Below are positions 2,058 through 13,484 of a stretch of DNA of 21,254 nt, one piece after another. The DNA lies in the IMG/VR virus record IMGVR_UViG_3300028892_000417, positions 1 to 21,254 of that record, one strand, 5' to 3'. The translations under genes and the position numbers were made by a program. The notes under the pieces were generated by a model. The model was not told the origin of the DNA and searched no databases. It saw nothing but the letters and a program-made list of their open reading frames with translations. Position 1 is the first letter of the stretch. Each line of letters begins with the position of its first letter. Source of the stretch: a virus.

Positions 2058-3980
2058 ATGGAAAATAAAAGAAACCCCAACAATGATCAGAACCCATTGT
2101 ACCGCGCATTAACTAGGCTATTATCTGGTCCTATCACTGATCGACGAAAACAAAATCCGCGCCAGCTTAAACGCAAACAGTTGAACAAATATAAATTCAC
2201 CTCCCCTGGTGGTTTGAGCTTCAAAAAAGAATCCTATAACCCTTTTGATAATTTTAGGACTTCCGCCTATCAAAACGTCAACCGAGCCGAGCGATATATT
2301 GATTTTGATCAAATGGAATACATGCCTGAGATTGCTTCCAGTTTAGATATTTATGCAGACGAGATGACCACCTCGTCAGCAATTCAGAAATTACTTCTAA
2401 TCAATTGCCCCAACGAAGAAATTAAAGAGATTTTATCACAACTATTTTATGAAGTATTGAACATTGAGTTTAATATTTTTGGATGGTGTCGTTCAATGTG
2501 CAAGTATGGTGATCTGTTTTTGTACCTTGATATTGACGAAGAACTAGGGATCACAAATGTCATTGGTCTTCCATCTCTGGAAGTGGAGAGGATGGAGGGT
2601 GAAGATAAAACGAATCCTAATTATGTCCAGTTCCAATGGAACAGTGGTGGCCTTACTTTTGAGAATTGGCAAATAGGACATTTCCGAATTTTAGGAAATG
2701 ATAAATATGCTCCTTATGGAACTTCTGTTCTAGAGCCATGCCGCCGAATCTGGAGACAATTACAACTATTAGAAGATGCGATGATGGCTTATCGTGTTGT
2801 GCGTTCACCAGAGCGCCGCGTTTTTTATATTGATGTGGGTGGAATTCCTGAAAAGGAAATCGAACAGCATATGCAAAGAATTGTTACTCAAATGAAAAGA
2901 AATCAAGTTATTGATTCTCAAACTGGTCGTGTTGATTTGCGATATAATCCAATGAGCGTCGATGAAGATTATTTCATTCCCGTTCGCGGCGGGTCTTCCA
3001 ATACGAGAGTTGAGAGTTTACCGGGTGGAACATATACAGGTGATGTGGATGATGTAAAATATTTGCGTGATAAACTATTTTCTGCGTTGAAAGTCCCACC
3101 ATCATACCTTACACAATCTGATGAAGGTGGCGACGAGAAGACTACCCTTGCACAAAAGGACGTGCGTTTTGCCAGAACAATACAGAGGCTTCAAAGAAGC
3201 GTGGTAGCAGAACTGGAAAAGATTGCGGTTGTCCATTTATATACACTAGGATTTAAGGGAAAAGATTTGTTATCCTTTAAGCTACATCTCAATTGCCCTT
3301 CTAAAATTGCTGAACTTCAAGAACTAGAACATTGGAGAACAAAATTCGAAATCGCTGGCGCTGCAACTGAAGGCTACTTTAGTAAACAATGGGTAGCAAA
3401 AAATCTTCTCAATCTATCCGATGAAGAAATTGTTCGCAACCAGCGTGAAATGTTTTACGACAAGAAATTTGAAGCGATGCTTGAGGGCTCTGCGGAAGCT
3501 GACGGCGGCGAAGCTGGTGGCGAAGCTGGCGGTGGTGATTTTGGTGGTGATGATCTTGGCGATGATCTTGGCGATGATCTTGGCGACGAAGAAGAAGGCG
3601 ACGAAGATGAAACACTATTGGCTGAACCGGGGAAGCGTAATGATATGAAGTGGCGAACTCAAAACCCAAAGCCACACCATACACCAAACGATAAAGGAAA
3701 ATCATACATCCCAGAAAAACACGATGATCGAGAAGAAGCCGGAAGAAGAAAAAACATGATGGGAAAAGTGGCTTCCGAGATGGGAAAGAATACACAAAGA
3801 AATGTTTTTCCAGGTCTTGATGGATTTAAGCAACAATACAAAGGTATAAAGGAAAATGCCGAAACTAATTATATTGAGGAATCTAAGGTAGAATTCGAAG
3901 TCTTAAGAAATAGTAGAGAAATTCAACAAATTATTGAGAACCTGGATAAAAGAGAAAATACAAAAAATGGTAAAATTTAA
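2058..3980 (+). CDS. 20: Portal vertex protein, T4 gp20-like, with acidic C-terminal extension
   Basis: This is the dodecameric portal at the unique capsid vertex, through which DNA enters and to which the neck attaches. The 640-residue protein shows T4-type portal sequence throughout: an N-terminal YNPFDNFRTS..NRAERYIDFDQMEYMPEIASSLDIYADEMT region (about residues 62-103), the clip/stem region around 290-325 (GRVDLRYNPMSVDEDYFIPV), and TTLAQKDVRFARTIQRLQ near 362-380. It is longer than T4 gp20 (524 residues). The excess is a Gly/Asp/Glu-rich stretch at about 478-520, with three perfect DDLG repeats, followed by a Lys/Arg-rich tail. It begins 2 bases after terminase and its last 14 bases overlap the next gene, suggesting translational coupling. 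Identity is sure; the role of the extension is unknown. Confidence 0.95.
   Translation: MENKRNPNNDQNPLYRALTRLLSGPITDRRKQNPRQLKRKQLNKYKFTSPGGLSFKKESYNPFDNFRTSAYQNVNRAERYIDFDQMEYMPEIASSLDIYADEMTTSSAIQKLLLINCPNEEIKEILSQLFYEVLNIEFNIFGWCRSMCKYGDLFLYLDIDEELGITNVIGLPSLEVERMEGEDKTNPNYVQFQWNSGGLTFENWQIGHFRILGNDKYAPYGTSVLEPCRRIWRQLQLLEDAMMAYRVVRSPERRVFYIDVGGIPEKEIEQHMQRIVTQMKRNQVIDSQTGRVDLRYNPMSVDEDYFIPVRGGSSNTRVESLPGGTYTGDVDDVKYLRDKLFSALKVPPSYLTQSDEGGDEKTTLAQKDVRFARTIQRLQRSVVAELEKIAVVHLYTLGFKGKDLLSFKLHLNCPSKIAELQELEHWRTKFEIAGAATEGYFSKQWVAKNLLNLSDEEIVRNQREMFYDKKFEAMLEGSAEADGGEAGGEAGGGDFGGDDLGDDLGDDLGDEEEGDEDETLLAEPGKRNDMKWRTQNPKPHHTPNDKGKSYIPEKHDDREEAGRRKNMMGKVASEMGKNTQRNVFPGLDGFKQQYKGIKENAETNYIEESKVEFEVLRNSREIQQIIENLDKRENTKNGKI
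3549..3584 (+). repeat. Three tandem 12-bp repeats inside the portal gene
   Basis: GATGATCTTGGC occurs three times in perfect tandem at 3549-3560, 3561-3572 and 3573-3584. Each copy encodes DDLG. The perfect DNA identity suggests recent slippage expansion within the acidic tail of the portal protein. The repeat keeps the frame, so its effect is a variable-length acidic linker. Confidence 0.9.
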
Positions 3981-5350: not shown

Positions 5351-5640
5351 GCCTAATATATTTTGTTTTAGCAGCCTATGGCTTAACACAACTCTTAGTG
5401 TATGCTAAAATATTTGACAAAATCAGACCATCATATCATTTGTTCCATTGTCCCATGTGTGTGGGGTTTCATGTCGGATGGTTTTTATGGGCGATAAACG
5501 GACAAACAGAACTATTTACTTATGAATATTCTATAACCACAGCACTTATTTTGGGGTGTGTGGGTTCAGGAACTTCATATATTGGAAACATGATTTTTGG
5601 AGATCAAGGAATAAATTTTAAAATGTGGGGTGAAAAATAA
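5347..5640 (+). CDS. Small membrane protein with CPMC motif (DUF1360-like)
   Basis: A 97-residue protein with two or three predicted membrane segments: residues 2-19 (SLIYFVLAAYGLTQLLVYAK region), about 38-50, and 60-80. Between the first two lies FHCPMCVGFHVG, a CxxC pair next to a hydrophobic turn, resembling the DUF1360 type of small membrane protein. The start at 5347 is chosen because its ATG overlaps the upstream stop as ATGA; an earlier in-frame ATG at 5320 would lie inside the previous gene. The stop overlaps the next ATG by one base (TAATG). A membrane protein among prohead genes may matter because T4 proheads assemble at the inner membrane, but this is inference. Confidence 0.82.
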   Translation: MSLIYFVLAAYGLTQLLVYAKIFDKIRPSYHLFHCPMCVGFHVGWFLWAINGQTELFTYEYSITTALILGCVGSGTSYIGNMIFGDQGINFKMWGEK

Positions 5641-5753
5641 TGTTAGAAAATCTATGGACAAGCAAATCTCGTATGCTTCGACCTGTGCGTCGATGTAAAT
5701 CAGGATGCATAGTCACGCGGGTTGCGCCCGCTTTTTATAATGAATGGAGATAA
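5640..5753 (+). CDS. 37-residue basic mini-protein containing a terminator-like hairpin
   Basis: A short frame begins at the ATG that overlaps the stop of the membrane-protein gene (TAATG) and runs to the TAA at 5751-5753, just after the GGAGA ribosome site of the next gene begins. It encodes MLENLWTSKSRMLRPVRRCK followed by a Cys, a hydrophobic VTRVAPAFY stretch and a final Arg. It is basic, with two Cys. The evidence is the tight coupling and exact fit between neighbours; without it there would be a gap of about 115 bases. Against it, the 3' half contains a GC hairpin with a T-run, so the region may instead be a regulatory leader. I do not recognise the protein. Confidence 0.55.
   Translation: MLENLWTSKSRMLRPVRRCKSGCIVTRVAPAFYNEWR
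5717..5736 (+). terminator. Terminator- or attenuator-like hairpin before the FtsZ-like gene
   Basis: GCGGG at 5717-5721 pairs with CCCGC at 5727-5731 around a 5-base loop (TTGCG), followed by TTTTT at 5732-5736. This has the form of a short intrinsic terminator. It lies only 20 bases before the FtsZ-like start, so there is no room for a new promoter after it; it may act as an attenuator or mRNA 3' end, or be incidental within the mini-protein gene. Confidence 0.55.
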
Positions 5754-5756
5754 GAA

Positions 5757-6965
5757 ATGATCGATGACAAACAAGAACCGGATGTAGCCGAAGAAATTGA
5801 TGCGGGTGAAATTAAAGAAACAAAACCGGAAGAAGAAACAAAAGATGAGCTAATCACAGAAGCAGATTCTTTTAGTTTACCAAGTGATGAGCCTGTGACT
5901 AGCACCTCTTTTGAAACTTTTGATGCCGAAGACTTCGGTTTTATTGAGCATTATGGTGAAGAAATTACAGTTCAACATAATGAGCAACTGCCCGAGAATG
6001 AAGCGGTGTCTGCTTTGAACTGTGCCTTTATTGGTATTGGCGGCGCTGGAGGAAAACTAGCGAAAGCATTTTTAGATTTAGGCTTTAATAAAACACTACT
6101 TCTCAACACTACAGAAAAGGATCAGCCGGAAGGTGTAGATCCCGCCCACTTGATTCTAATTCCTGATGCTGATGGAGTGGCTAAAAATGTCGCTTATGGA
6201 AAAAAAGTATTTAGTGAAAACAGCGCAGTTGTTGAAGATGCTATTCGAACTAAACTTGGTAAAGTAGATTGGATTTTTGTTTTGGCTGGTGGAGGTGGAG
6301 GAACCGGAAGTTCTTGTGTTGTGCTTCATGAAGTTTTTGAGCGATACCTAAGTTCAGTTCAGGGTGAAGGAAAAGTATTTTATATTATATCTTGGCCTAC
6401 GGCGCAAGAATCTCTTAACCACACTATTTCCAAAAACGCATTATCCCTGGCTAATGACGTAGCACCACATCCTCATATTCTTATTGATAATGAGAAACAA
6501 GCGCAACTACTTCGCGGAAAGGTTGGTATCCTAAACTTGTATCCAGTAGCGAATTCTACATTTGCTAAGTTGTTTCATCAAATTTTAAAACTGGCTTCGG
6601 AAAAATCCTATGTTCAAACCTTTGATTCAAAAGATCTTGAGCGATGCTTGGGGACCGAGGGCAGAATGTTCTTGGGCTCCACTATGATAGCAAATCCAGC
6701 AGATCCCAATCTTGGCGCAGCCATTTATCAAAATTGTATTAAGCGTTCTCCGTGTCCAATGCCAAAAGGGAAGTCCGTTACGGGGACGATGTTACTAATT
6801 ATTACACCGGAAATGGCAACAGATCCAGAGATTAGCAAACATTTGGACGCAGCAGTGTCCTATGTTGGCGGAAGGTGTGAAACCTTGTTTTCTGGTGTGT
6901 ACATCAAAGAAAACTTACCAGGGCTTGTTGCGGTCTTATCGGTGAATGGGTTAGACGGGAGATAA
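5757..6965 (+). CDS. Tubulin/FtsZ-superfamily GTPase
   Basis: A 402-residue protein with the landmarks of FtsZ in the right order. Residues 1-85 are an acidic, probably disordered N-terminal extension. Then come the P-loop-like FIGIGGAGG at 91-99 (FtsZ GVGGGGG), LLLNTTEKDQ at 114-123 (FtsZ NTDAQ), a T3-like GVAKNVAYGKK at 140-150, and the tubulin signature LAGGGGGTGSS at 176-186. ILIDNEK at 241-247 matches FtsZ ITIPNDK. In the C-terminal domain, FDSKDLERCLGTEGRMFLGS at 289-308 aligns with the FtsZ synergy loop, with D290 and D293 in the catalytic DxxD positions. It ends with LPGLVAVLSVNGL, like the last FtsZ strand. So the GTP site and the polymerisation-coupled hydrolysis loop look intact. 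Deviations: the last Gly of the signature is Ser, and NTD is NTT. GGAGA lies 6 bases before the ATG. It sits immediately before the prohead protease. Filament formation and function are inferred. Confidence 0.88.
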   Translation: MIDDKQEPDVAEEIDAGEIKETKPEEETKDELITEADSFSLPSDEPVTSTSFETFDAEDFGFIEHYGEEITVQHNEQLPENEAVSALNCAFIGIGGAGGKLAKAFLDLGFNKTLLLNTTEKDQPEGVDPAHLILIPDADGVAKNVAYGKKVFSENSAVVEDAIRTKLGKVDWIFVLAGGGGGTGSSCVVLHEVFERYLSSVQGEGKVFYIISWPTAQESLNHTISKNALSLANDVAPHPHILIDNEKQAQLLRGKVGILNLYPVANSTFAKLFHQILKLASEKSYVQTFDSKDLERCLGTEGRMFLGSTMIANPADPNLGAAIYQNCIKRSPCPMPKGKSVTGTMLLIITPEMATDPEISKHLDAAVSYVGGRCETLFSGVYIKENLPGLVAVLSVNGLDGR

Positions 6966-6969
6966 TAAA

Positions 6970-7533
6970 ATGAGCAAGTACCTTCTTAGAGAATATTATG
7001 AATTATGCGCTGGTGGCATTTGTGAGGATCTATTAACAGAAGATGAAAAGGTCCAAGTTAAAAACGGTGCGACTTTCCTATCAGGAATTATGCAGAGGGT
7101 AGATGAGCAAAACGGTAATGTCAAAAACTATATGAAGACGGTCAAAGAGAACCGTGCTTGTGGAGAACTAGATCATCCAGAAGATTCAGTTGTCAATCTT
7201 AAAAATGCTTCTCATATAGTTACTGATTTGTGGTGGGAAGGTCAAGACTTGAAAGGAAAAATCAAAGTATTATCTACTCCCTCTGGAAAAATTTTAGAAT
7301 CTTTGGTGAGTGACGGTGTTACTTTGGGAATTTCATCTCGGGCTTTGGGGTCTGTTCATGAAAGCCAAGGGAAAACAATTGTTGAAGATGATCTTCAATT
7401 GATTTGCTTTGATATTGTTTCCGAGCCGTCAACCGAAGGCGCATTTATGAAACTAAGTGAATCAAAAATTAAACAACCATATTCTAAGGCTGATCGTATT
7501 AATAGATTACTGAACGATATTGTAGGAGACTAA
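6970..7533 (+). CDS. 21: Prohead core protease, T4 gp21-like (S80-type)
   Basis: This serine protease is housed in the prohead core and cleaves the scaffold and the N-terminus of the capsid precursor before DNA packaging. In T4 it cuts after Glu in LxE or IxE contexts. The 187-residue protein has the family hallmarks: catalytic His69 in GELDHPEDS and catalytic Ser in GISSRALGS (S122/S123), with a VVNLKNASHIV strand and a FDIVSEPS strand before the C-terminal helix. Length is close to T4 gp21 (212 residues). GGGAGA precedes the ATG by about 7 bases, and the gene follows the FtsZ-like gene by 4 bases, so the two are probably expressed together. Confidence 0.94.
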   Translation: MSKYLLREYYELCAGGICEDLLTEDEKVQVKNGATFLSGIMQRVDEQNGNVKNYMKTVKENRACGELDHPEDSVVNLKNASHIVTDLWWEGQDLKGKIKVLSTPSGKILESLVSDGVTLGISSRALGSVHESQGKTIVEDDLQLICFDIVSEPSTEGAFMKLSESKIKQPYSKADRINRLLNDIVGD

Positions 7534-7540
7534 AGAGGTG
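7534..7540 (+). promoter_or_regulatory. Ribosome site deciding the 7544 start
   Basis: AGAGGTG lies 3 bases before the ATG at 7544 and overlaps the possible GTG start at 7538, which would therefore have no ribosome site of its own. This favours the ATG. Confidence 0.6.
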
Positions 7541-7543
7541 AAG

Positions 7544-8524
7544 ATGTCAAGAGAAGATTTAGAACGGATGATCAAAGAAGAAGCAGAAGATCTGTTAGGA
7601 GAAAAAGCAGATCCAAATAAAATAGACTCAGAGCGTTTTCCACTAAAGCTTTCGGATGTAGGCACAGATACAGCAAAGGTAGTCGCGACTCACGGACTAT
7701 CCAAGTATGATAAAGATCCAGATGACGATGTTATAGCAGTGGAAAAAAAGCCAGATGGTGTTGCTTCGGTAGGTAATCTTAAGCCATCACAGTCCAGTAT
7801 GAATATTGGAAAAGCGATGACTTTTGTTTTGCATATGCTAGATCCAAACAGTAAGATGAATCCCGGTGGCGATCTTGGCGCGTTCATTAGTAAAGATTTT
7901 TATATTATGGATGGACATCATCGATGGATATCAACCGCCATGGTAGATCCATCTAAACAGGTCGGTGGATTTTACGTTGATTTTCCCGGTCAGCAATTAG
8001 TCGCAATTTTAAATGCGATGACGAAAGGTCGCTATGGAGTGATGGATGGAAAGCCAGCCTCCGGTGGCTTCGAACAATTTAAAGAAAAACCAATTCGTGA
8101 TATGCTTACAAAAATGGTGGAAGGCGGGATTAGTCAAGGCACAGTCCCAGATACCTTCAAAGGTTGGCAAGCCCGAACCCCTGAAGAAGTATTAAAAATC
8201 CTAGAAGACTGGACAGGGAAAGAAGGCGAAGATGCTGTAGAATCTGCTGTAACAAAAATGGTAAATAATTTGAGTAGTATAACAATGGCAACACCTTCGT
8301 GGGCTCCCGAGCGTCCCGATATGCCTGTGATTGATAAACCCGATATTCCTGATGCGGTCAAAGCATTGACGCGAGGGGAAATTGATGTAAACGAACCATA
8401 CTTTCAAAGCGAAGAAGATCCCGTTGGTCAGCCACCCCTAGAAGAATCTCGCAACCTTATGTCAATCTCCAAAGAAAGGCTACAAGAGATCATCAAAGAA
8501 GAACTACAAAATCGCAAGAGGTAA
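7544..8524 (+). CDS. ParB/sulfiredoxin-like domain protein with repeated end helices
   Basis: A 326-residue protein. VGNLKPSQ at 77-84 and IMDGHHRWIS at 121-130 match the layout of ParB/Srx-fold proteins, in which a substrate- or nucleotide-binding D/E-G-H-x-R box follows a short N-terminal motif; DGHHR variants occur in nucleotide-handling members such as SerK/DUF1015-type proteins. Residues 30-230 form the likely folded core; about 250-305 is Pro/Asp-rich linker. Both ends carry a similar amphipathic helix: SREDLERMIKEEAEDLL at the start and SKERLQEIIKEELQ at the end. The ATG at 7544 is chosen over GTG 7538 for its ribosome site. It lies between protease and candidate core genes and 2 bases from the next gene. 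The fold call rests on the short DGHHRW box, so activity (nuclease, kinase or binding only) is open. Confidence 0.75.
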   Translation: MSREDLERMIKEEAEDLLGEKADPNKIDSERFPLKLSDVGTDTAKVVATHGLSKYDKDPDDDVIAVEKKPDGVASVGNLKPSQSSMNIGKAMTFVLHMLDPNSKMNPGGDLGAFISKDFYIMDGHHRWISTAMVDPSKQVGGFYVDFPGQQLVAILNAMTKGRYGVMDGKPASGGFEQFKEKPIRDMLTKMVEGGISQGTVPDTFKGWQARTPEEVLKILEDWTGKEGEDAVESAVTKMVNNLSSITMATPSWAPERPDMPVIDKPDIPDAVKALTRGEIDVNEPYFQSEEDPVGQPPLEESRNLMSISKERLQEIIKEELQNRKR

Positions 8525-10223: not shown

Positions 10224-13200
10224 ATGCCTTTTCCTTTTCCATTCACAATGTTTGGATCAAGTAGAGCAAGTAATGTACCTGCGGGAGCAACTTGCGATTT
10301 TACTTATTGTTATGGCGGCGACTGGGTTCAAGGCAAAGTTGGCAATTATGGGTTATTTTTCCCAGGTGATATTAATGGAGATGTTGAATGGGTGTCTACT
10401 CCATCTACGCCTGATATTGAATTTAGCGATTCGGATGATTTTACAGTTGCTTGTTGGGTCAAGCCAGACACCAGCATAGACGATCAGCAAGCTTTTGTTT
10501 CAAAAATATGCCAAGTCGGCGGCTATGGTTGGGCTTTGGCATTGAATGGGTTGCCCCCGCGAGTGCCCGATAATAAGTTTGTTTTTATGATTTATTCTTT
10601 AGGTTCTTCCCCGTTCCCGGGATGGGAAGCGATCTATTCCGATATCGCCATCACTTCTTCCGCATGGCACCATGTAGCTGTTACAAGAAATGGTGCTGAT
10701 ACAAAGACTTCAATACTGTATGTTGATGGAGTTGCACAAGCAGACACTATGACCCGAACACTTGCAGAGTGTAGTGAGGGATTAACTATTTCAAAGTGGT
10801 TTTCCGATGGTGTTGTTGCTAATCGTCATACACTCAGCGGCTCTATTGATGAAGTCGCGCTTTGGGACAGAGTATTGCCCGCCTCATCAATTCTTAGTTT
10901 ATATAATTCGGGGGTCGGTGCGAGAGCCGACAGCATAATACCACCGCCCGTTGGTATTGTTAATGGCGATTGGTCAACGGGAACAAATAAAAAAATAGGC
11001 ACTTATGGAGTTGGACAATTAGACAGAGTTGCCAACTATGTTTCTTGTTCTTGGGACTCTAATATAGATTTTGATCATGGCGATCCTTTTTCTTGGTCGA
11101 TTTGGGTTAAACCTACTGATTTGGCAGGTCAAACAGCGAACAATGCTTCTCCCGCCGTGATCACAAAAGAGACATATATGAACCCAACCGGGTTCACATG
11201 TGCCCTTACTGAAGACGGAAAGGTTTGGTTTGGTTTGACTGGCGGTGGCAGTGGTACAGGATATTTACATATACACACTACAAACACAAACCAAGTCAAT
11301 GATAACACTTGGGCTCATCTTGTTTTTACTTATGACGGAAGCAATCTTGTCAGTGGTTTTAAAATCTATGTGGATGGCGCAGAACCAGCATCGACCATCT
11401 TTTCTTCATCACCAGCAGCATCTGTCTCGATGCTAGGACAAGCTCTAACTCTTGGAAAAAGAGGTCCAAACAACCCCGGCGCAGCGCAACGTTATCTTAA
11501 AGGCTACCTGGACGATTTTTCAATTTGGAATGTAGAATTAGATTCTGGTGCAGTTCTGGACTTATACAATAGCGGATCTGCGGATAAAGGAGCATTAGAA
11601 TCTGGTGTTAGTAGTTCGGCACTTCAAGGATACTGGGATTTTGAAAACCCAGGACCAGGATCAACAACAATTAGCGGAAGTCGTGGGCTTGATGCGACTA
11701 TGATGGGAGGTATGGATGGTGGCATTGCCGCCACCACCGGCTCACTCTTGTTATATTATGATTTCGAAATTGGCAATTCAAACCCAGTTTCAGGAAACTT
11801 CCCAACATCAAGAACAATTTATGATGTTGATACAGTCGCTTGGAAATCACCAACGATGCACACAGGAACAATGACAATTCAGATGAATCCAGCGGATTTT
11901 GGTGCGTGGGGTCAAGGGAAACTTGGAAAGTATTCATTTCTGGGTGATGGCGTAGATGATTATATATCGATAGCTTCTGCTTCTCAATTACCGCTTGGCA
12001 AAGGAGCAGGCGATATGAGTGTTGCCGCTTGGTGCAAACAAAGCGACACGACCAATTGGATGCAGGTAGTTACCCGAGGTGTTGATTGGTCAGACATGTG
12101 GGGTTTGGGCAAAGATGGCACGGGTAAGATGCAGTTTGGCGTTGGTGGCTATGGTCAAGCTAAAATCCTCTTCGACGAGGAGGATACATGGACACACTTT
12201 GTCGGCACCTACAACAACTCACTTGGAAAAGTTAAAATTTATAAAAACGGCGTTGAACAAGCCGAGGCATCCCACGGTCCGAATGGCGTTGCCGCAGGAG
12301 ATGTTCGAATCGGAGGACATTCGGCGGGTGGCTACGAATGGTACGGAAATCTTGATGAAGTTTCAATGTGGGACGGTGTTTTAGATACTGGCAGTATTGA
12401 TAGTTTGGCAAGCGGATCAAAAGCAAATGCCATAACTACGACGGCTGGGTCAGTAACTCCAGGCGATTGGGTTACAGGAACAACCGGAAGTATTGCTGAC
12501 AGTATCACAAGCACTTATTCTGTGGATCTTGGGAACGGTACAGACGATTATATTCCGATTGATGATTTGTCAGGAATTTCTACAGAACTAGCGGGATTAG
12601 CTGGCTTCTCGATTGCTGGTTGGTTTTGGACTGATTCATTCCCAGCAAGCTTCGATACGCCTGACGCTGCCGGTCTGTTCTCAGCGGTTAATTCCACCAC
12701 TTATGGGGGGGGCGGCGGCTACAATGCTATTTCTGCTATATCGCTTCACTTGCGAGGGCACAGCAACCCCGACTATAATAAAGGAATGGTATTTCAAGTT
12801 ATGAATGGGTATGATGCGGGTGCTCGATACGTTTGGGCGGGTGATCTACCAGGTCTTAGTCCCAAACCAGGGTTAGCGGGACAATGGAATCATGTTGCGG
12901 CGGTTTATGATGGAACTTTGGGTCCGACAGCAGGCGGCGCAACTGGAACAAATCAAAGCGCTGCCCAGAAAAGAGAGATGTGTAAAATATATATTAATGG
13001 TATTTATCGCGAAGTCGCGGGAACACCACCGGGAGCTTATGATATTCCAAACACAACTGCGGCGGAGTTTGTGGGTGGTCAGGTTCGTTTTGGGAAAGAC
13101 CTGTATGGGCAGAATTCTGATCCCACATTCGATGGAAAACTTGATCAAATGGCGATATGGAATGTCCCGCTATCTGCATCAGATGTTCGATATTTATTTT

Positions 13201-13484
13201 CTGGAACACTTGCTCCAAATGCTGTAAGCTCCTCAAATCTTATTTCTTATTGGAGTATGGATGCTGATGGACCTGGAAGCACAAATCTTGTCGATTCATC
13301 TGCTAATGGATTTGACGGCACATTAACAAATATGAACGCCGGTGCCGCCGCCCCAGCCGCAGCAACCCTTTCTGCTTATTTAGATATGGAATGCGATGGA
13401 CCAGGCTCTACTAACGTATTAGATCTGTCTGGAAACAGCTTATCAGGAACTTTAACTAACCCAGACTCAGGATCTTGTGGATAA
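10224..13484 (+). CDS. Large multi-LamG (concanavalin-like lectin) surface protein
   Basis: A 1086-residue protein made of four LamG/concanavalin A-like domains at about residues 35-230, 255-450, 560-728 and 750-993. Each has the jelly-roll marks: FTVACWVKP / FSWSIWVKP / MSVAAWCKQ / FSIAGWFWT; then WHHVAVTRNG / WAHLVFTYDG / WTHFVGTYNN / WNHVAAVYDG; then YVDGV / YVDGA / YKNGV / YINGI; and IDEVALWDRVL / LDDFSIWNVEL / LDEVSMWDGVL / LDQMAIWNVPL. Short Y-D-GPGST modules stand alone at about 467-499 and twice at the C-terminus. There is no signal peptide or transmembrane helix, as expected for a virion protein. LamG domains bind glycans or proteins, so a role in host or surface adhesion as a head or tail appendage is likely but inferred. 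A strong AGGAGG ribosome site precedes the ATG. Confidence 0.9.
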   Translation: MPFPFPFTMFGSSRASNVPAGATCDFTYCYGGDWVQGKVGNYGLFFPGDINGDVEWVSTPSTPDIEFSDSDDFTVACWVKPDTSIDDQQAFVSKICQVGGYGWALALNGLPPRVPDNKFVFMIYSLGSSPFPGWEAIYSDIAITSSAWHHVAVTRNGADTKTSILYVDGVAQADTMTRTLAECSEGLTISKWFSDGVVANRHTLSGSIDEVALWDRVLPASSILSLYNSGVGARADSIIPPPVGIVNGDWSTGTNKKIGTYGVGQLDRVANYVSCSWDSNIDFDHGDPFSWSIWVKPTDLAGQTANNASPAVITKETYMNPTGFTCALTEDGKVWFGLTGGGSGTGYLHIHTTNTNQVNDNTWAHLVFTYDGSNLVSGFKIYVDGAEPASTIFSSSPAASVSMLGQALTLGKRGPNNPGAAQRYLKGYLDDFSIWNVELDSGAVLDLYNSGSADKGALESGVSSSALQGYWDFENPGPGSTTISGSRGLDATMMGGMDGGIAATTGSLLLYYDFEIGNSNPVSGNFPTSRTIYDVDTVAWKSPTMHTGTMTIQMNPADFGAWGQGKLGKYSFLGDGVDDYISIASASQLPLGKGAGDMSVAAWCKQSDTTNWMQVVTRGVDWSDMWGLGKDGTGKMQFGVGGYGQAKILFDEEDTWTHFVGTYNNSLGKVKIYKNGVEQAEASHGPNGVAAGDVRIGGHSAGGYEWYGNLDEVSMWDGVLDTGSIDSLASGSKANAITTTAGSVTPGDWVTGTTGSIADSITSTYSVDLGNGTDDYIPIDDLSGISTELAGLAGFSIAGWFWTDSFPASFDTPDAAGLFSAVNSTTYGGGGGYNAISAISLHLRGHSNPDYNKGMVFQVMNGYDAGARYVWAGDLPGLSPKPGLAGQWNHVAAVYDGTLGPTAGGATGTNQSAAQKREMCKIYINGIYREVAGTPPGAYDIPNTTAAEFVGGQVRFGKDLYGQNSDPTFDGKLDQMAIWNVPLSASDVRYLFSGTLAPNAVSSSNLISYWSMDADGPGSTNLVDSSANGFDGTLTNMNAGAAAPAAATLSAYLDMECDGPGSTNVLDLSGNSLSGTLTNPDSGSCG
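11622..11720 (+). repeat. First Y-W-D-x-x-GPGST protein module
   Basis: This encodes residues 467-499 of the LamG protein, with GYWDFENPGPGSTTISGSRG. It matches the pair of modules at the C-terminus in spacing and in the GPGST core. It resembles the first strand of a LamG domain left without the rest of the domain. Confidence 0.6.
13239..13460 (+). repeat. Two tandem C-terminal GPGSTN protein modules
   Basis: Residues 1006-1036 and 1049-1079 share the pattern Y-x-x-M-[DE]-x-DGPGSTN-[LV]-[VL]-D-x-S-x-N-x-x-x-GTLTN. The two DNA copies (from 13239 and 13368) differ at many wobble positions, so the duplication is not recent. Each looks like an N-terminal LamG strand set with its characteristic GTL turn. 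Confidence 0.75.

Follow-up and report, generated by a model that had tools for sequence, protein, structure and literature searches.

A tubulin/FtsZ-superfamily protein encoded by uncultured T4-like phages

The tubulin gene and its sequence motifs

The window analysed in this work (the whole stretch of 21,254 nucleotides, positions 1 to 21,254 of the IMG/VR virus record IMGVR_UViG_3300028892_000417) carried T4-like genes: terminase, portal gp20 (2058..3980, plus strand), used here as the phage-lineage marker, prohead protease gp21 (6970..7533, plus strand), gp23 and gp13-type proteins. An open reading frame on the same strand (5757..6965, 402 amino acids) started with an ATG preceded by a GGAG ribosome site and stopped four bases before the start of gp21, the coordinates and spacing being those of the initial annotation. 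PDB searches, alignment and a predicted structure identified its product as a phage tubulin, here assigned to “subfamily A”. Just upstream, a possible open reading frame for a basic protein of 37 amino acids (5640..5753, plus strand; RPVRRCKSGC), with a similar frame in nine relatives, ended in a GC-rich hairpin with a T-run (5717..5731, plus strand), a terminator-like element present at the same place in all nine loci of the window's sub-lineage. The T4 late promoter TATAAATA was not found in the window.

The first 56 residues (5757..5924, plus strand) formed an acidic extension, predicted with low confidence (pLDDT under 60) and presumably disordered, whose length differed among the aligned relatives. 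It was followed by an acidic-aromatic motif, AEDFGFIEHY (residues 57-66; 5925..5954, plus strand), kept in relatives as DDFDFVEAY or EDFD: among 61 aligned members F62 was invariant, and D59, F60 and Y66 were conserved in at least 90%. A related EDFD motif was present at the N-terminus of a second, 28%-identical subfamily (“subfamily B”, see below), so that an acidic N-terminal motif exists in both subfamilies; it is a candidate docking motif. Cleavage of the N-terminus by gp21 was considered as a possibility, from LxE-like motifs.

The tubulin/FtsZ unit corresponded to residues 84-402 and contained the P-loop-like, tubulin-signature and DxxD motifs that had been recognized initially: the T1 nucleotide loop GIGGAGGK (residues 93-100; 6033..6056, plus strand), with G93, G95, G96, G98, G99 and K100 invariant in the 61 members; the T4 signature GGGGGTGSS (residues 178-186; 6288..6314, plus strand), with G180-S185 invariant; and, from the alignments, the T7 synergy loop and start of H8, VQTFDSKDLERCL (residues 286-298; 6612..6650, plus strand). 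Here D290 and D293 (DSKD) aligned with the aspartates of E. coli FtsZ NVDFAD; both were invariant in the 61 members and were also kept in subfamily B, and the position of FtsZ N207 (the N of NxDxxD) was occupied by T, S, A or V in the phage tubulins. The segment first described as “ITIPNDK-like” did align with FtsZ SLITIPNDKLL on the guanine side, but its sequence is HILIDNEKQ (residues 240-248), i.e. IDNEK and not IPNDK. The protein stopped almost directly after its last strand; alignment and model agreed that A1 members extend no more than a few residues past this strand and have neither the C-terminal linker nor the adaptor peptide.

Fold and superfamily membership

The window protein is a member of the tubulin/FtsZ superfamily. 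A single-sequence phmmer search of the PDB retrieved CetZ (3zid, 4.5e-10) together with many FtsZ chains, the latter near 1e-4, and the profile matched CetZ at 1.5e-9. The Pfam Tubulin model (PF00091, best 2.6e-10) and the FtsZ model TIGR00065 (best 1.2e-11) each matched all 61 members. The window protein alone scored 26.2, below the Pfam gathering score of 33, which was exceeded by 9 of the 21 records searched (8 related phage contigs and one bacterial MAG that has its own FtsZ).

The structure was predicted with AlphaFold2 from the alignment of 61 diverse relatives (mean pLDDT 87.1, mostly 92-98 across the domain). An earlier model built from 25 sequences had placed the C-terminal domain poorly (rmsd about 14 Å), a problem resolved with the larger alignment. 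Structure prediction had been proposed initially as a check, the lack of a two-domain fold counting against a tubulin; in the predicted structure this fold was complete, with the H7 core helix, and gave Z scores of 26-32 over approximately 270-311 residues against TubZ, CetZ and FtsZ chains. By fold (model residues 84-402), TubZ ranked first (Z 32.0, 311 residues, 2.3 Å), followed by CetZ2 (31.6), CetZ (30.3) and FtsZ (about 28). The predicted fold, together with the Pfam and TIGR00065 matches, thus supports the initial proposal of a putative tubulin/FtsZ-like GTPase in a T4-like phage.

In tubulins, the catalytic T7-loop aspartates come into play on meeting the nucleotide of the next subunit. 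The invariance of these residues and of the nucleotide loop argues for an assembly-coupled GTP hydrolysis and against a dead decoy, and the conserved aspartates are the best indication in the sequence that the protein may polymerize.

Relatives, subfamily B and hosts

Relatives were encoded in 197 IMG/VR stretches; the analysis drew on 98 strong matches from the fetched loci, and 61 representatives (52-87% identical to the window protein, near-identical copies existing besides) were aligned. The carrier contigs reached 284 kb, several being near 203-205 kb. The gene is carried by a broad set of uncultured T4-like myoviruses, which we take to be mostly marine, judging from the sample numbers. 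No homologue of subfamily A or B was found by tblastn in 50,697 annotated phage records, and profile and Pfam-model searches detected no tubulin in the nearest isolates; it was missing from two isolates, Flavobacterium phage immuto and Microcystis phage Mel-JY01. Four matches fell in bacterial MAG bins, including Flavobacteriales and Halobacteriovorax, and were probably phage contigs that may have been misbinned. Peptidoglycan amidases (Amidase_2 on 7 of 16 contigs) indicate that the hosts are bacteria, “bacterial” being as far as this evidence reaches. An unannotated, uncultured huge phage of 484 kb (LR756508, locus L126) had a portal that was a near relative, and no convincing tubulin was found in it.

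Subfamily B was discovered through the portal survey, on a T4-like contig of 119 kb, and was represented by 15 loci in IMG/VR. It shared 28% identity with subfamily A along the entire length (99.7% hhalign probability), had a C-terminal helix which was missing from the window's subfamily, passed the Pfam Tubulin cut-off, and matched the TubZ C-terminal model TubZ-like_C (PF22453; 29.6 bits vs. a cut-off of 26) and TubZ 4ei7 (2.3e-14).

Gene position

The initial annotation raised a possible link of the gene to gp21 and head assembly, and a survey of the neighbourhood did not support this link. Adjacency to gp21 was restricted to the window's sub-lineage, where tubulin sits between a DUF1360-like gene and gp21. 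The gene was located between gp23 and gp13 in 23 loci; other loci had it immediately ahead of gp22, some 4-5 kb upstream of terminase, or with o135 and the DUF1360-like gene on either side. Thirty-two loci showed no recognized head gene in the fetched DNA, many of them having PhoH-like, protease or baseplate-type neighbours. Tubulin and head genes were on the same strand in every locus showing both.

Syntenic relatives lacked the gene. A 73-kb contig (G022; portal 69% identical) had the same gene order, with an open reading frame of 160 amino acids where tubulin would be, and a 185-kb contig (G026) had nothing at the slot before gp21; no tubulin was found elsewhere on either contig. In a close relative (L226, 11297-11779) an open reading frame of 160 amino acids filled this slot, which looks like a cargo site. 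Many close relatives were without tubulin on the contigs at hand, suggesting that it is probably dispensable, though these counts rest mostly on fragment contigs, and good evidence for absence comes only from the 185-kb contig and the complete isolates. A fixed T4 head-assembly gene was rejected, given the several arrangements and the absence of tubulin from syntenic phages with the same head block; the best reading is an accessory late gene.

Selection and inheritance

Tubulin had a dN/dS of 0.03-0.05 in the window's sub-lineage, where synonymous sites were unsaturated, comparable to portal and gp21; the value for gp23 was higher (0.13-0.19). In any given set of phages, the portal, gp23 and gp13 all varied more than tubulin (mean amino-acid distance 0.31 for tubulin vs. 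0.39 for the portal, and 0.34 vs. 0.44 for gp23); such slow evolution of tubulin would be expected of a filament lattice. Tubulin distances were rank-correlated with those of portal (0.91) and terminase (0.88), none of 999 permutations giving values as high, suggesting vertical inheritance within the carriers while the address of the gene changes. One locus (L029, 9911-10231) contained a second tubulin, a truncated N-terminal part similar to those of L019 and L024, just upstream of an intact gene of another type; we read this copy as a remnant of turnover there.

Placement with respect to FtsZ, TubZ, CetZ and PhuZ

The closest overall fold was that of TubZ, the partition tubulin of plasmids and phages (PDB 4ei7, 2xka). 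However, identity to TubZ was only 17-18%; subfamily A has a long acidic N-terminus instead of a C-terminal helix or tail, none of its 61 members matched TubZ-like_C, and its genes lie in blocks of virion genes in T4-like phages. No tubC-like iterons were present upstream in the five loci checked, and no TubR-like partner was common to the arrangements, which had no constant neighbour. CetZ, an archaeal cell-shape protein (PDB 3zid, 4b45, 4b46), was the top PDB sequence match, with Z scores of 30-32, but it formed a separate branch of the tree and the hosts of the phage tubulins are bacterial. FtsZ shared with the phage proteins the model matches and the fold described above, and differed in having a C-terminal linker and peptide.

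FtsZ identity was rejected: the window protein scored 20.6 bits against the TIGR00065 equivalog cut-off of 295.2 bits and fell outside the FtsZ clade (support 100/99). The tree, a check that had been suggested initially, separated the protein from a monophyletic FtsZ, but its deep nodes were weak, with few references, several of them fragments from PDB alignments, and long branches flagged. Under the same limits, subfamily B joined TubZ (90/84), subfamily A grouped at 78/88, and CetZ (94/81) was joined with FtsZ instead of the phage proteins.

PhuZ identity was likewise rejected (hhalign probability 0.2%, or 15% with both subfamilies; PhuZ lay far off on a very long branch), and a phmmer search with PhuZ as query retrieved PhuZ-type chains, beyond which the best match was at E 0.47. 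PhuZ of nucleus-forming jumbo phages is also a phage-encoded tubulin and an accessory gene, and a job in organizing the infected cell may be shared. Unlike PhuZ, the tubulin described here occurs with T4-like virion genes, and no match to chimallin (phiKZ gp54) was found in 12 contigs of 94-284 kb, in a search where the positive control was found and a single-sequence query may miss distant homologues. The initial view that the protein is closer to FtsZ than to PhuZ therefore holds as far as PhuZ is concerned, there being no PhuZ profile match, but the nearest folds are TubZ and CetZ, and subfamily B matched TubZ best.

The best viral matches by fold were A0A6J5RW92 (“FtsZ Cell division GTPase”, uncultured Caudovirales phage; E 2.8e-16) and A0A8S5UFG9 (“Cell division protein”, Myoviridae sp. 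ctcyQ27; E 2.8e-13), both at 16-18% identity; they show that automatic annotation has already met phage FtsZ-like proteins. Two FtsZ/tubulin types have been mentioned in general terms for jumbo phages (PMC7824862; PMC7162821). In open-access full text (paywalled work lying outside this scope) PhuZ and TubZ were described and the present family was not; as the initial annotation had supposed, a tubulin of this kind in a T4-like block is apparently undescribed in the open literature. The phage proteins form a lineage of their own, distinct from PhuZ and FtsZ, to which TubZ and CetZ come closest; since subfamily B also matches the C-terminal model of TubZ, the group as a whole appears TubZ/CetZ-like, and “TubZ/CetZ-like phage branch” is the fairest label.

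Proposed role and alternative explanations

The tubulin probably builds filaments late in infection. By analogy with PhuZ, our main reading, to which we give a probability of roughly one half, is a GTP-driven filament that would organize late infection in phages with no detectable phage nucleus. Subunits would stack head to tail, each supplying the T7 aspartates that complete the GTPase site of its neighbour; dynamic filaments formed in this way would organize the infected cell at a late stage, where they would position phage DNA or nascent heads, and may bind cargo or membrane via the acidic N-terminal DFDF motif, a contact proposed because the usual C-terminal tail is missing. Late action is suggested by the late-gene orientation. 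PhuZ is an accessory gene whose product moves capsids and centres DNA (PMC13282480; PMC10299810), and organization of DNA or proheads may be the most economical job here too. Several points count against the filament: no phage-nucleus shell protein was found, so the known cargo of PhuZ is absent; no partner gene was constant across arrangements; the asparagine corresponding to FtsZ N207 is replaced; and many close relatives are without the gene on the contigs at hand.

The best of the alternatives, although unlikely, is a modulator of host division that binds or caps host FtsZ, or otherwise stops division, so that the cell grows larger for the late production of phage. Phages often halt division through FtsZ (Gp0.4, Kil, DicB; PMC13423816), the phage tubulin is distantly homologous to FtsZ, and its accessory, cargo-like pattern of occurrence suits a host-takeover gene. 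However, the known phage inhibitors of FtsZ are small, unrelated proteins; with 16-20% identity to FtsZ mixed filaments would be unlikely; a capper has no need of the GTPase site and synergy loop, which are intact and strongly constrained; and the late-gene orientation is late for division arrest.

A TubZ-type partition system segregating phage genomes in a carrier or pseudolysogenic state is improbable. The nearest folds include TubZ (Z 32.0), subfamily B exceeds the TubZ-like_C cut-off, matches TubZ (2.3e-14) and groups with it (90/84), and a gene with a ParB-like motif (DGHHRW) lies within 40 bp in some lineages; but iterons and a common TubR-like partner were not found, the tubulin is placed among virion genes in the same orientation, subfamily A has lost the C-terminal helix and tail, and the DGHHRW gene was not seen near most copies and is also beside gp21 in tubulin-less phages.

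Quite improbable as well is a role in head morphogenesis, in which the protein would work with gp21 as core, scaffold or prohead transporter and would possibly be packaged or cleaved. The four-base spacing from gp21 in the window's sub-lineage, and the gp23/gp13 or pre-gp22 positions in others, would fit this role; against it, the position varies, many copies lie outside the head block (by PhoH or baseplate genes, or upstream of terminase), the head block is complete in syntenic phages that have no tubulin, and the isolates immuto and Mel-JY01 lack the gene. A degenerate or horizontally acquired host gene with no conserved role, which the patchy presence and the truncated copy in L029 might suggest, is hardly credible, being contradicted by the constraint (dN/dS 0.03-0.05, invariant active site), a divergence in step with portal and terminase across dozens of phages, and the position outside the FtsZ clade.

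Phage tubulins have been described chiefly in jumbo phages that form a nucleus and in TubZ partition elements. On the filament reading we tentatively propose, as a possibility we hold at rather less than even odds, a third, ocean-wide phage cytoskeleton lineage, in which T4-like phages without a nucleus would move proheads or DNA by tubulin filaments; if so, phage cytoskeletons arose or spread beyond those two groups. A large, constrained tubulin family in uncultured T4-like phages implies that intracellular organization by viral filaments may be far commoner, allows PhuZ to be compared with a natural counterpart from phages that have no nucleus, and places new deep branches between TubZ, CetZ and FtsZ, useful for following how tubulins diversified.

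Neighbouring elements

The DGHHRW protein of the window (7538..8524, plus strand) was a recurrent but inconstant neighbour of tubulin. Proteins with this motif, reminiscent of ParB-like folds, gave a single weak Pfam match (0.058). In the window's sub-lineage the gene was one gene away from tubulin; in one group it lay 4-37 bp upstream, and in two other loci it touched or overlapped the tubulin end. Where present in the fetched carrier flanks it was always within 610 bp of tubulin. Such proteins were seen near tubulin in L058-L062, L073, L074, L077, L048 and L064, in varied gene orders and variable sequence versions. Since most carriers showed none nearby, and tubulin-less relatives have DGHHRW beside gp21, a partnership, for instance as a candidate DNA adaptor, is a lead only.

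The window gp21 (6970-7533) was missing 12 residues present in relatives (GRVYPKLVLERE), a clean in-frame gap that corresponds to either a real deletion or an assembly collapse. In one locus (L010, 4646-11649) TerL, gp20 and gp21 each appeared as two open reading frames, suggesting frameshift errors in the contig. Between the head genes of the window, positions 10224-13484 encoded a protein of 1086 amino acids, apparently with several LamG-like repeats, which may be a decoration or fibre protein.
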